From assembly GCA_001896725.1 (NCBI GenBank), contig MPPA01000018.1, positions 1 to 64,000 on the forward strand: 64,000 nucleotides of DNA, in the 5' to 3' direction. Each line of letters opens with the position of its first letter. Within the stretch, counting starts at the first letter, position 1. The DNA comes from Methanococcoides sp. EBM-47 (GTDB taxonomy: Archaea > Halobacteriota > Methanosarcinia > Methanosarcinales > Methanosarcinaceae). A program made the translations under genes and the position numbers. Positions 23,268 through 62,817 of this stretch are shown one piece after another. The notes beneath the pieces are model-generated. The model saw nothing but the letters and a program-made list of their open reading frames with translations, was not told where the DNA came from and did no database searches.

Positions 23268-23460
23268 AACATCAAATGATATATATGTTTGTATTAACAC
23301 TGAAAACTATCTAAAAATGAAATAGATGGGTAATATCTAAAAGGTAGCAGAATTCGACATCATTGTGTTATCTCAGAGTTTTAAATATAATGAATACTAA
23401 ACTTATAAAATAGTAAATAATATTAAAAATATTAAAATATATGATATTAAGGTGATATCA

Positions 23461-56604: not shown

Positions 56605-57903
56605 TCATAAGAGATATTCATCAAGTCTTTCCCTGGCAAGCTCTCTTTTCTCTTGATGGTCCTTCAGGAACTTTTCCATTTTCTCAGCGGCCAGGTTCTT
56701 ACAACTACCACAGTTCCTCTGCCCTGTAACACATTCCTCATATATCTGCGAAAGCTCCTGATCATCTTCTATGAGATGGAAAAGCAAAAGCTCGTATACG
56801 GAGCATTTGTCAGGTTCACCGCCCAGTTTCTTTTGCTCTTCCAGGCTTATGCGTCCCCCGGTCTTTGCACGTTTTATCTTTTTTGAACCTTCTTTTGGCT
56901 CATCAAGAAGAGCTATATGGCTCTCAGGGGTACTGCTTGACATCTTCCCACCCTGCAGGCCAGACATGAAACGGTGATAAGTAGCTGCAGGAGGAATAAA
57001 TGCATAACCTCCATAACGAAGCTCGACATCCCTTATCATCCTTATCAATTCTTCAAAGTCTTCAGCATCAAGAACATCCAGATGACCTTCAAAGAGTTTT
57101 GTGCCGCCAGGGATCTGGTCGGCCAGTTCTTCAAGTGCCTCCCGGGGAGCTGCTTTGCTGCGTATGCTGAAATAATGTTTCCCGTTTTTATCCTCTCTGC
57201 CTTCTATTTTGAACATGTTCATCTTATGACCAAGCCCTCGGGTAAGACGGATATGCGGGTCCTGATCAGCACCTACTGGTACAACGGTCGGCTTTGGTCC
57301 ACCATACTCTTCAAGCTGGGGATGAAGTATATCAGCACTTTGCGTTACTGCACTTACCATATGGGAAACGCTTGTTTCCCCGGTGAACCCATAGATAGCA
57401 CTCAATTCTGAATAATTTACCTTGGAACCGAGCTCGAAAGAAAGGTCTTTCACATTATTTGAATCGGATTGGAAATAAATGTGTCCATGAGGTTCAAAAC
57501 CAAGGGCAATGAGACTTAAGATATACTCATTGATGCCCGTATCCCGACATTTCTTCCATGAGGTCCCCCTTACGGAATAAGCTTCACGGTCAGCTATACC
57601 TACAAATGCATCAGCACCTTTCTGCTGATGCCATATTATCTCTTCCATAACCATCTTATGCCCAAGGTGTATCCTTCCGGAGGGCATGAAACCGCTCATA
57701 ACAGCGAACGGCCTTTTATTCTGTATTGCATCAAGTATACGATCATAACTTCGATGACCGAAGATCACTTTTCTACGCATTAATCTATGAGGGTCCTCTA
57801 TACGAGAATATAGGTCATCGAACGGCATTATACCAAATTCCTCAAATAATTTGGAATAATCTTCGACATTAGTTGAGCTCCACGGATCAAGTTTTACATT
57901 CAT
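56605..57903 (-). CDS. trpS: Tryptophanyl-tRNA synthetase
   Basis: A 432-residue class I synthetase of the archaeal/eukaryotic type. The HIGH-like motif is seen in [14 protein letters not shown], the KMSKS equivalent in [11 protein letters not shown], and [15 protein letters not shown] binds tryptophan/tRNA side. Charges tRNA-Trp. First gene of trpS-pheS; TATA-like sequence lies at about 57930-57940. Confidence 0.95.
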
Positions 57904-58012: not shown

Positions 58013-59221
58013 CTATTTTTTCATCAGCCTGAAATCATATGGTGCCAACCCATCTTGCAGTATATTACTAACTTGTCCAAGAAATGCAGGTTCATGCATT
58101 TTGCAAGTATAACGTTCTCCTCTGTAATGTGGACTTTTACGCATCCTTTTCCATATGGTCTTCAGTGATTCTTCACAGACATTACCATAACTGAGCGGAA
58201 TATAAGGACATGGTTTCACAGAACCTTCAACACATATGTGTAGCCAGCGCTGGCCAGCCATGCATCCCAGCATCTGGCCTTCAAAATAAGTATTTGCAAA
58301 GATGCGTGGACCATCCTTTGAGGAATTGATGCGCTTATACATATCCAAAATCTTTTTACGCTGCTGATCGGAAAGTATCGGATCGTCAGGCATCTTAGGG
58401 ATGCTTTCCCATAAAGAGAATTCATGCACTCCCAGAGATGTTGCCATTTCATACATTGCAGGCAGTTCGTCTATGTTCCTGGGAGATACATGGGTACACA
58501 TTGTGACCAGAAGCCCTTCCTCAAGTCCCATTTTAATAGCAGAGGTGGCTTTTTCAAAAGCACCTTCGAGTCTGCGGACCTCATCATGCTTTTGTGGTTC
58601 AGTGGAATAAATGCTCACAAGAAGATTGTACAAACCTGCTTCTTTCAGTCTTCTTGCGGTCTCTGGTGTCATTTCAGTACCCGGAGTATACATATTGACA
58701 ATGGCACGCTCTTTATCAACATATTCTATAAGCTCGAATATGTCCTCGCGAAGCATGGGATCCCCTTCAGTGAAAGTGATTATGAAAGCTCCCATGTCCA
58801 GTGCTTCATCAATTACTTTTTTCACTGCCGATGTGTCAAGTTCGCCCTCCCCTCCACTTATAACACAATGAGCACACTGGCATTTACATTTGCGTGTGAT
58901 CTCAAAAGATACGGTCTCTGGTACATATCTTCCAAGTGCGATCTGGATCTCAGCAAGCAATAATCTGTTAAAAGCTTTACTGGGTATGGGGGGAAGCCAT
59001 GTGGAAGCAACAATAAAATCTTCTGTTACAAGAGCTGGTTTTTCTTCAATAAGACGGGAGTTGATGCTATCCAGAAAAGGAGTACATGGTCTTTTAAGAC
59101 CACCTTTTGCTTCTAGTTTGACAAATGTTTCTTTCTTATGTAACTTAATGGTAAGCCCTGGAATAGATACAAGAGTGACGGCAGCTTCTGGAGTTTTCGA
59201 AGGCTGTTCAGTAGAATTCAT
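58013..59221 (-). CDS. Radical SAM protein with SPASM-like C-terminus
   Basis: A 402-residue radical SAM protein. About 110 residues precede the cluster motif CKCQCAHC (C-x3-C-x2-C within ITRKCKCQCAHCVI); TEGDPMLREDI is the GGEP equivalent. The C-terminal part has CMAGQRW, CVEGSVKPCPYIP and C in YTCKMH, likely auxiliary cluster ligands. The reaction is unknown; relatives modify peptides or tetrapyrroles. Its ATG overlaps the stop of the KaiC-like gene (ATGA), so the two work together. Confidence 0.85.
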   Translation of the reverse strand: MNSTEQPSKTPEAAVTLVSIPGLTIKLHKKETFVKLEAKGGLKRPCTPFLDSINSRLIEEKPALVTEDFIVASTWLPPIPSKAFNRLLLAEIQIALGRYVPETVSFEITRKCKCQCAHCVISGGEGELDTSAVKKVIDEALDMGAFIITFTEGDPMLREDIFELIEYVDKERAIVNMYTPGTEMTPETARRLKEAGLYNLLVSIYSTEPQKHDEVRRLEGAFEKATSAIKMGLEEGLLVTMCTHVSPRNIDELPAMYEMATSLGVHEFSLWESIPKMPDDPILSDQQRKKILDMYKRINSSKDGPRIFANTYFEGQMLGCMAGQRWLHICVEGSVKPCPYIPLSYGNVCEESLKTIWKRMRKSPHYRGERYTCKMHEPAFLGQVSNILQDGLAPYDFRLMKK

Positions 59222-59997
59222 TGATATTCTCCTTTTTTTGAGGGAGTATTGCAGAAAATGTCTGCTTTCTCACATAGGAGGGAACCATGAGGATCAACAA
59301 CCAGTCCTGCATCAGTGATCCTATAACGATGTATGGATTCATCGTGTTTGACACCCCTCATTTTGAGGACCTCTATGAGACGGAACTTTTCATTTCCGAT
59401 CCTTGACGTATTAAGGGAAATAACACCCTCTGCAAGATACTCCTCCACATTGAAAGTATCTTGCACATATTTATTTTCACTTGAGATAAGGGTTGTGCAA
59501 CACATATTCTCTATATTCTTTATAAATTCCAGCAGTATGAACCTGATATTGACCGGATCATGTGACATCTTCAGTGTTGTGATAGAATCAATGAAAAGAC
59601 GTTTTGCACCGATCTGTTGTACATTATGATATATCTGATTGAGAACGCTTTCAAGCGTCATTTCCTCAGTATCTATCTTTTCATATGTCATTGATCGCTT
59701 TATGTATCTGCTATACTTCAGTGGATCAATGCGGACTATCCTTAGCTTGTTCTCCTTTATCAGCCTTTCAAGATCCCAGTTATGTCGCCACATATTACGC
59801 ATTATTCTGGCGGGTGATTCATCAAAGGTAACATAAACACCAGTATCATTGTATCTGGTAATACCTTCATAAAGATACTGTACCCCAAAAGTAGATTTGC
59901 CTGCTCCTGGTCCTCCGATGATCAGAATGACATCGTCTTCGATAAAGCCGCCTTCGATCAATTCGTCAAAACCAGGTATTCCTGTAGGCACTCTCAT
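59218..59997 (-). CDS. KaiC/RAD55-like ATPase paired with a radical SAM protein
   Basis: A 259-residue RecA-superfamily ATPase: VPTGIPGFDELIEGGF and Walker A IGGPGAGKSTFG at the N-terminus, KRLFIDSITTLK as the Walker B strand, and a C-terminal half lacking a second KaiC domain. Family members act as regulatory or signalling ATPases in archaea. Directly upstream lies a perfect 14-bp dyad; the gene overlaps the radical SAM gene by 4 bp. Confidence 0.87.
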   Translation of the reverse strand: MRVPTGIPGFDELIEGGFIEDDVILIIGGPGAGKSTFGVQYLYEGITRYNDTGVYVTFDESPARIMRNMWRHNWDLERLIKENKLRIVRIDPLKYSRYIKRSMTYEKIDTEEMTLESVLNQIYHNVQQIGAKRLFIDSITTLKMSHDPVNIRFILLEFIKNIENMCCTTLISSENKYVQDTFNVEEYLAEGVISLNTSRIGNEKFRLIEVLKMRGVKHDESIHRYRITDAGLVVDPHGSLLCEKADIFCNTPSKKGEYQ

Positions 59998-60020
59998 AAA
60001 AGACCTTCAAGCAGTATTGT

Positions 60021-60056
60021 ATAGTAAATTATATTCCATGTTATATAATTTACTAT
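60021..60056. promoter_or_regulatory. Perfect 14-bp inverted repeat upstream of KaiC-radical SAM operon
   Basis: ATAGTAAATTATAT (60021-60034) and ATATAATTTACTAT (60043-60056) are exact inverted repeats around an 8-bp spacer, 24 bp upstream of the KaiC-like start. The dyad overlaps the likely TATA element. It may be an operator; a terminator of the upstream aIF2-beta transcript is also possible. Confidence 0.55.
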
Positions 60057-60079: not shown

Positions 60080-60688
60080 TTAAACCCTTTCTGCAAAAGC
60101 CAGATTTCCACTGATCCTCTTGATCCTGGCTTTAACAGTTTGTCCTTTGGAAGTATTAGGCACGAATATAGTGTATTTGGATAGTTTAGCTATTCCGTCA
60201 CCCTTGGAACCGACCGAATCTATCATCAGTTCATATTCTTTTCCTTCTTCGATCTCATCCTTTGGTGCCTGAGCTACAGCACGTCTCTTTTTGACGGGTC
60301 TGTGACCACCACATGCTGAACATCTGAGCATTAACACCCTATCGACTTTGACAAGTTGCGTATCCGGGCGGCCACATTCTGAACAGATAACATATTCCTC
60401 AACATAGGCATCTATGTTGGATTTTAGCATATCTTTAGTGAAACGCCCTTGGAACACCGCTCTGCTCCCTTCGATCTTACCTGCGGTACCCAGTTCCCGG
60501 GTCAGGTATTTCATCAAATGGTCCGGGTCCCTGTTGAACACATCCGCTATATTGCCAAAATTGTCAAAGATGGTGGTCTTCCCTTCAACCAATACCCTGG
60601 GTTCAGGAATAACAAAACGTTCACCAGCGGTTTCCATATCAGGCAGGTTGGCCAACGCACGGTCAAGCAACTTCTCATAGCTATCCAT
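60080..60688 (-). CDS. Translation initiation factor aIF2 beta with TRAM domain
   Basis: A 202-residue factor. The aIF2-beta core includes [18 protein letters not shown], the helical [13 protein letters not shown], and a zinc ribbon (CSECGRPD and CSACGGHR). The last ~55 residues form a TRAM domain ([19 protein letters not shown]), an RNA-binding fold seen on aIF2-beta in Methanosarcina. It delivers initiator tRNA with the gamma and alpha subunits. Lies 33 bp after rpl10e. Confidence 0.95.
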
Positions 60689-62002: not shown

Positions 62003-62115
62003 AAAGAACTTCCTATAATACCTATTATATACTAGTAAAGATATTGTACACTGCGACAAATTACCAGGCATATAGACGATAATAGGAAAATATATAATAG
62101 CTCAGAAGGTTGCGC

Positions 62116-62817
62116 ATGACAGGATATTCATTAGGCATCAAAGAGCTGGATGAGATCCTTGGTAGTATCAGGGAGGGAACGAATATCATGATGATAGGTC
62201 CTCCTATGAGCTCTAAAGATGAACTCCTTAACCTGATCGTGTACAACGGCTTCATTAATGGTAATTCATCTATAGTTGTATCCACCCGTGAACCAGGAGA
62301 AAGGTTCTTTGAATGGTTCGAACGCAATGGAATAGACATATCTGATGCTAACATAGGTGTAGTCGATTGCGTTACAAAGACCCTTGGGATGGGTGCCCCG
62401 GAAACAGACAGAATAAAACGCGCATCGAGCCCGGTTGATCTGACCGGTATTGGAGTAAAGATCAGTCAGTTCTTTGAAGATTTCCTGATGAAAAGAAAGA
62501 TACGCCATAACAGGCTTTGTATCAACTCACTGTCAACTATACTGATGTATTCCAATCTGCATACAGTGTTCAAATTCCTTCACGTCTTCACCGGAAGAGT
62601 AAAAGCAGCAAATGGATTAGGAATATATGTTGTAGAGGATGGAATGCATGATCAGCAAACAATAACTACCCTACAACAACTTTTTGATGGAATGATCGAG
62701 ATCCGTTCAAGCGGTGAGCATCACTGTGTACGTGTGATTGGATTGACCCCAAAACCAACTCCCTGGTTTGAATATGAGATCGAAGGCAATCGCCTGAAGC
62801 TTAAAGAATGCAGGTGA
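62116..62817 (+). CDS. RecA/RAD55-fold protein with degenerate Walker A
   Basis: A 233-residue KaiC/RAD55-like protein: YSLGIKELDEILGSIREG aligns with the family start, but the P-loop reads IGPPMSSKDEL, lacking the Gly-Lys-Ser/Thr core; INSLSTILMYS takes the place of the Walker B strand. Hence ATP binding may be lost or altered, suggesting a partner or regulator of an active paralogue. ATG at 62116 follows AGGTTG. Stand-alone gene between moaB and yhbY. Confidence 0.78.
   Translation: MTGYSLGIKELDEILGSIREGTNIMMIGPPMSSKDELLNLIVYNGFINGNSSIVVSTREPGERFFEWFERNGIDISDANIGVVDCVTKTLGMGAPETDRIKRASSPVDLTGIGVKISQFFEDFLMKRKIRHNRLCINSLSTILMYSNLHTVFKFLHVFTGRVKAANGLGIYVVEDGMHDQQTITTLQQLFDGMIEIRSSGEHHCVRVIGLTPKPTPWFEYEIEGNRLKLKECR

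Follow-up and report, generated by a model that had tools for sequence, protein, structure and literature searches.

A radical SAM/SPASM-like protein family as a candidate for methanophenazine biosynthesis in Methanosarcinia: three paralogues, a linked KaiC-like ATPase and a branch that has lost its cluster cysteines

Enzymes of the radical SAM and periplasmic-binding-fold types act together with a UbiA protein in the futalosine pathway of menaquinone biosynthesis. With MqnA/D, MqnE, MqnC and the UbiA-type MqnP, it combines radical SAM enzymes and a prenyltransferase to yield a prenylated respiratory carrier. Methanophenazine is the prenylated phenazine carrier of cytochrome-containing methanogens. 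Its biosynthesis has been described as undeciphered (PMC6315138), as has its pathway in a study that describes the geranylfarnesyl-PP synthase MM0789/MA0606 as required for it (PMC8546582). Methanoperedens uses menaquinone and has no methanophenazine (PMC5244752), methanophenazine is the expected carrier of ANME-2a/b/c and ANME-3 (PMC9012536), and gut Methanosarcinales have kept only the methanophenazine-linked chain (PMC11362671). Among radical SAM proteins, the described systems closest to the protein studied here are the haem-type enzymes AhbD and NirJ and the RiPP maturases SkfB, PqqE and SuiB; a precedent for a non-canonical protein derived from a radical SAM enzyme is provided by the TIGR04347 pseudo-SAM/SPASM proteins of haloarchaea.

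We analysed a 64,000-nucleotide stretch (the window) of contig MPPA01000018.1 from assembly GCA_001896725.1, whose genome is probably a Methanomethylovorans by kinship; some other genus names (Methanosarcina, Methanohalophilus and Methanimicrococcus-like) were likewise assigned by kinship. A first-pass annotation had marked positions 58013-60056 as a KaiC-like ATPase gene and a radical SAM gene behind a palindrome. The span proved right, and Pfam agreed with both identities (KaiC, 4e-63; Radical_SAM, 8e-16). The two genes (59218-59997 and 58013-59221, both on the minus strand) overlap by 4 bp at 59218-59221, which is indicative of translational coupling. They are flanked upstream by the gene for translation initiation factor aIF-2 beta with a TRAM domain (60080-60688, minus strand; NF008993, 320.9 bits, over the cut-off) and downstream by the tryptophan--tRNA ligase gene trpS (56605-57903, minus strand; NF008926, 725.6 bits). 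Both are conserved neighbours in Methanosarcinaceae, where the gene order is aIF2-beta, (kaiC), radical SAM gene and trpS.

The radical SAM gene encodes a 402-aa SPASM-like protein, paralogue A of a three-member family by the phylogenetic tree described below. The motif CKCQCAHC (C112/C116/C119; 58865-58888, minus strand) matches CxxxCxxC and, together with PF04055 (7.8e-16), places the protein in the radical SAM superfamily. The extra cysteine motifs pointed out in the first-pass annotation are real: C320, C330, C338 and C373 (58103-58264, minus strand) lie in a partial SPASM/twitch region, where PF13186 is over its cut-off (1.2e-6), yet matches only at positions 1-50 of 67. Four C-terminal cysteines are enough for about one auxiliary cluster and short of the full two-cluster SPASM set. 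At the place of the GGEP SAM-binding motif, paralogue A has TEGDP or AEGDP, where readable, paralogue B has GGET and paralogue C has GGEP itself. Paralogue A has the core fold, CxxxCxxC motif and SPASM-like C-terminus in common with AhbD and NirJ, but differs from them in an N-terminal domain of about 95 aa that belongs to no Pfam family and in its fewer auxiliary cysteines, as seen against the true AhbD of the same genome. AhbD, NirJ2 and PqqE are the best NCBIfam matches of the paralogues; membership of paralogue A in the AhbD, NirJ or PqqE families was rejected, all NCBIfam scores being far below the cut-offs. The AlphaFold2 model (pLDDT 89.4) had SkfB, PqqE, SuiB and BlsE as its top Foldseek matches and GDGT-MAS among the weaker ones. 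SkfB, PqqE and SuiB were also among the best phmmer relatives, but the TM scores were only about 0.5-0.56 and, in contrast to these maturases, the N-terminal ~95 residues gave no Pfam match even at E = 10, on which ground an RRE/PqqD domain was rejected.

The KaiC-like protein is a single-domain RecA ATPase of 259 aa with the Walker A motif GGPGAGKST, and its nearest solved relatives are KaiC proteins. It belongs to the KaiC superfamily (PF06745, 4.1e-63; 213.3 bits versus a gathering score of 26.6) and shares the RecA/KaiC fold, Walker A and a full-length PF06745 match with circadian KaiC and the archaeal proteins PH0186, PH0284 and SSO2452. Unlike circadian KaiC, which has two RecA domains, it has one, and it scored far below the cut-off of the clock family (TIGR02655, 120.8 versus 546.25 bits). 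About 2 kb from this gene, and flanked by MoaB-like and CRM-domain genes, the window also contains a second, very divergent KaiC-like ATPase gene (62110-62817, plus strand; DUF7504, 3.7e-26; KaiC, 4.8e-7).

The palindrome was confirmed as a perfect dyad (60021-60056) located between the aIF2-beta stop (60080) and kaiC, with 23 bp separating it from the kaiC ATG. Its 14-bp arms (60021-60034 and 60043-60056; ATAGTAAATTATAT-8-ATATAATTTACTAT) are 100% complementary around an 8-nt loop, making it the longest perfect spaced inverted repeat within the window. An arm of at least 14 bp arose in 4 of 1000 dinucleotide-preserving shuffles of the window, and 20,000 shuffles of the intergenic sequence yielded no arm longer than 12 bp. 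A TATA-box-like element, TTATATAA (60041-60048, minus strand), begins in the kaiC-distal arm and is preceded by a BRE-like AGTAAA; judging from archaeal promoter spacing, transcription would start near 60018, just past the dyad, with a leader of ~20 nt. The dyad is most likely a putative operator over the core promoter of the kaiC-radical SAM unit in Methanomethylovorans. On whether it acts as operator or terminator, which had been left to transcript mapping, the former is more likely: neither a T-tract nor any terminator-like site (0 sites) was found at the dyad, and an intrinsic terminator was rejected. A dispersed operator was rejected as well, because the dyad occurs as a single copy in the genome within 3 mismatches. 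The motif search that had been suggested gave no second dyad in the genome; within the window there is a half-site, ATAGTAAATAATAT (23410-23423), that differs from one dyad arm by one mismatch. It precedes an ATG (23461) by 38-51 bp, and the intervening sequence is AT-rich. This half-site suggests that one dyad arm may just be a core promoter.

It is unlikely, though worth retaining as an alternative, that the dyad is instead an RNA hairpin, an aIF2-beta transcript-end signal or two opposed overlapping core promoters. The leader RNA folds with z = -4.5, a value that is relevant only if transcription starts upstream, and each arm alone would resemble a BRE plus TATA box, a near copy of one arm lying upstream of another ORF. 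The dyad is found in five of six Methanomethylovorans genomes, in four of them imperfectly; across five species, 95.7% of the pair cells are kept, with one compensatory change (A-U to G-C in G005). However, the same pairing was reached in 74 of 500 shuffles, so that retention is not convincingly above chance and strong covariation support for an RNA structure was rejected. The missing T-tract also speaks against a transcript-end signal, and the dyad, unlike aIF2-beta, is absent beyond the genus: it was not seen before kaiC in other genera.

The window genome encodes two further relatives of paralogue A with about 40% identity, and the same three paralogues, which are of ancient origin, occur across the class. 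In the tree, A, B and C form separate clades, each containing Methanosarcinaceae, ANME-2-type families and Methanotrichaceae, and AhbD falls outside. A fourth, fast-evolving family member (L069 8800-10011; G060, family f6) branches outside A, B and C. The neighbourhoods of B and C are rich in prenyl-lipid genes. In Methanosarcinaceae, B lies with a CcmE-like gene and the geranylfarnesyl-PP synthase gene, followed by an apparent A-type ATP synthase operon (from gene sizes and order), and beside an AhbD-type haem cluster; it adjoins the geranylfarnesyl-PP synthase gene in Methanotrichaceae and CcmE in family f2. Paralogue C adjoins a UbiA prenyltransferase and a geranylgeranyl-reductase-like protein in Methanosarcinaceae and in the Methanoperedenaceae MAG UBA10536, and UbiA in f6, and the Methanotrichaceae UbiA gene is about 8 kb from C. 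A Methanosarcina genome of 5,751,492 bp has both the B-synthase and the C-UbiA arrangements. In ANME-2-type families, neither B nor C adjoins a prenyl gene, and the locus of A in Methanosarcinaceae, between aIF2-beta and trpS, has no link to side-chain enzymes; genetic linkage to these enzymes is found for B, for C and in lineages where the genes are clustered.

Such clusters occur outside the class. Across the phylum, 95 of 393 genomes, a count that takes in the class itself, matched the family profile strongly. Methanocellales-like MAGs (L118-L120) have a single ~8-kb cluster with an A-like gene, a second paralogue and a fourth radical SAM gene (~330 aa), followed on the opposite strand by a reductase, another paralogue, UbiA and an NMT1/THI5-like protein, and Methanonatronarchaeia (L123-L126) have the same genes in two groups. 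These clustered loci suggest that A, the B/C-like proteins, UbiA and the reductase are one functional set. Paralogue A would have its true partners in B and C and in genes for prenyl lipids at other loci of the genome. The fourth radical SAM gene (L118 3835-4827, L119 11319-12323, L120 10958-11983) had no SPASM match to Pfam in the L118 copy. The NMT1/THI5-like proteins (e.g., L118 8119-9000 and L121 4829-5722) are next to UbiA in six distant loci and have no obvious signal sequence; they may be biosynthetic enzymes like MqnA/MqnD. An orthologue of this fold in Methanosarcinia was rejected, the matches there being weak and unlinked.

The distribution of the paralogues follows the respiratory carrier. 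Among the 238 class genomes, MqnC exceeded the curated cut-off in 33, which all belong to families f4 and f5; a paralogue better than 1e-50 was found in none of these 33, and nearly all other class genomes have the set. The Fisher value of this exclusion is inflated by shared ancestry, as the exclusion reflects few independent events and f4/f5 maybe one or two switches. The C-linked UbiA shows the same pattern: within f4/f5 it occurs only in UBA10536 (G112, L199; 67% complete), the sole f5 member that carries the set. This MAG combines the paralogues and UbiA with no MqnC match, a state that may reflect a carrier switch, a transfer or a binning error. The genomes of g10 and g11, which we took for the gut Methanosarcinales clade, keep the paralogues. 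With carriers assigned from the papers cited above, the set is present in methanophenazine lineages and absent in menaquinone lineages.

From these sequence data, we lean towards the view that A works with B and C in methanophenazine biosynthesis, with KaiC as an accessory and the dyad as an operator. The side chain would be made as a C25 unit by geranylfarnesyl-PP synthase, attached by UbiA and 2,3-reduced by the flavoprotein, as judged from the protein families and the known methanophenazine structure, and the ring would be constructed or tailored by radical SAM chemistry of B and C, with A as a partner. The futalosine pathway serves as a working analogy, which extends to the NMT1/THI5 periplasmic-binding-fold protein of the MAG clusters. 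It is a likeness of design and not membership: the radical SAM families differ, and MqnC over its cut-off and the paralogues never occur in one class genome. Further points count against the proposal. We identified no phenazine core gene; proteins of the UbiA and geranylgeranyl-reductase families are also used for the membrane lipids of archaea; and we know of no methanophenazine production in the lineages with the tightest clusters (f12 and f22).

That the three paralogues instead modify membrane isoprenoid lipids (e.g., C25-containing or altered archaeol) and have no methanophenazine role is improbable in our estimate. UbiA, polyprenyl synthase and geranylgeranyl reductase are the usual partners in lipid synthesis, and the weak structural match to GDGT-MAS would fit such a function. 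However, archaeol lipids are universal, whereas the paralogues track the division between menaquinone and non-menaquinone lineages, and the geranylfarnesyl-PP synthase is tied to methanophenazine (PMC8546582). A role in haem or cytochrome maturation, an even more doubtful reading, would agree with AhbD and NirJ being the nearest named families and with the position of B beside CcmE and AhbD in Methanosarcinaceae. It is already disfavoured: paralogue A reached 149.6 bits against the AhbD haem b synthase model (TIGR04545), whose curated cut-off is 500, whereas the true AhbD of the window genome is a separate gene with 616.7 bits, and the set is absent in Methanoperedenaceae, which are cytochrome-rich. 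Furthermore, all g8 genomes checked keep the paralogues, although some Methanosarcina have lost Ccm (PMC9084895).

The pairing of kaiC with paralogue A has a narrower range than the paralogues. With a close kaiC orthologue defined as a match at E <= 1e-50, all 39 Methanosarcinaceae genomes that have one (38 intact, 1 broken) carry it immediately before the radical SAM gene, and where the gene is kept its dN/dS is about 0.05-0.13 where measurable, which indicates purifying selection. Paralogue A occurs without kaiC in Methanosarcina, Methanococcoides, Methanohalophilus, Methanohalobium, Methanothrix and ANME-2. Decay is visible within Methanomethylovorans, where kaiC is reduced to residues 1-33 joined in frame to residues 230-255 in G005, carries stops and an ATA start in G003 and is no longer recognisable in G004; two Methanococcoides-type loci have eroded kaiC remnants. 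The homologues in families f2, f3 and f5 (46-54% identity) are unlinked to the radical SAM gene and in unrelated contexts, on which ground KaiC as a general partner was rejected. Methanoperedenaceae possess a KaiC homologue in the absence of the radical SAM gene, f5 being without the family except for UBA10536. A KaiC homologue lies near UbiA in G049, but in a second f3 genome the KaiC gene keeps its neighbour and UbiA is on a different contig. In two f3 genomes (L209 1287-2306 and L212 6508-7527), the unlinked homologue adjoins a 339-aa protein starting M(E/D)I(I/V)FDDIGSYPLP.

The two genes thus form a real linked unit, yet kaiC is dispensable, and kaiC and its dyad are local extras. The regulated pair of the first-pass annotation holds as a linked unit within the Methanosarcinaceae genomes that have a close kaiC, where the neighbourhood is conserved, but not beyond: kaiC is lost, broken or unlinked elsewhere, and outside a subset of genera the loci largely show what had been named as evidence against the idea, namely unlinked genes and no conserved dyad. 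The further notion of a two-gene modification system did not survive. That KaiC and A form a dedicated dyad-regulated system with its own substrate, independent of B and C, is very improbable, for the constant adjacency, the 4-bp overlap and the purifying selection on both genes are outweighed by the persistence of A without kaiC in most lineages, the decay of kaiC beside an intact A, and the position of A in the tree as sister to B and C, with which it shares its distribution and, in other classes, its gene clusters.

The CxxxCxxC motif of paralogue A is kept in every KaiC-bearing lineage. In the Methanosarcina lineage (g2, g8, g10, g11 and g12; 12 loci), it is gone or nearly so, and the auxiliary cysteines likewise where checked. 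Eleven of the 12 loci lie beside aIF2-beta and/or trpS, and in six of the 12 the dN/dS of this pseudo-A is 0.05-0.19, indicating purifying selection. Because the cysteines are lost and the gene is nevertheless under selection, A must have a role without an iron-sulphur cluster there. The TIGR04347 proteins differ in that they are a different family (99.2 versus 525 bits) and in that only the orthologues of the Methanosarcina lineage have lost the cysteines, whereas the window protein keeps them. Paralogue A is the most derived member of the family, with TEGDP in place of GGEP and its cluster ligands lost in the Methanosarcina lineage; being derived, and ligand-less under selection, it is probably at least partly a partner subunit of B or C. 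KaiC, tied to A where present and dispensable for the pathway, would play an accessory part, probably by regulating A in a nucleotide-dependent way or by helping to assemble it. The complete scheme, which we advance tentatively and at somewhat less than even confidence, is that methanophenazine is built by three, in some lineages four, radical SAM/SPASM-like proteins with geranylfarnesyl-PP synthase, UbiA and a prenyl reductase, and that A acts as a partner protein, which in Methanosarcina has turned into a pseudo-enzyme lacking the cluster and in some genera is controlled by the co-transcribed KaiC ATPase.

In the literature searched, whose scope excluded subscription papers and preprints, we found no paper that assigns these genes to methanophenazine or names its pathway. 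On KaiC, archaea and radical SAM enzymes together, it yielded a peptide-fingerprint survey only, and no paper that pairs KaiC with a radical SAM protein. A part for radical SAM proteins of this family in making a prenylated respiratory carrier, with one branch turned into unusual pseudo-enzymes, may thus be new, although prior publication is possible.

A radical SAM protein that gave up its iron-sulphur ligands and stayed under selection is an unusual case of transition to a pseudo-enzyme, and intact sister lineages are at hand for comparison. In cytochrome-containing methanogens, and probably in most ANME-2, respiratory electrons travel on methanophenazine. With candidate genes that are distributed together and occur in a genus amenable to genetics, the question of its biosynthetic pathway is directly testable.
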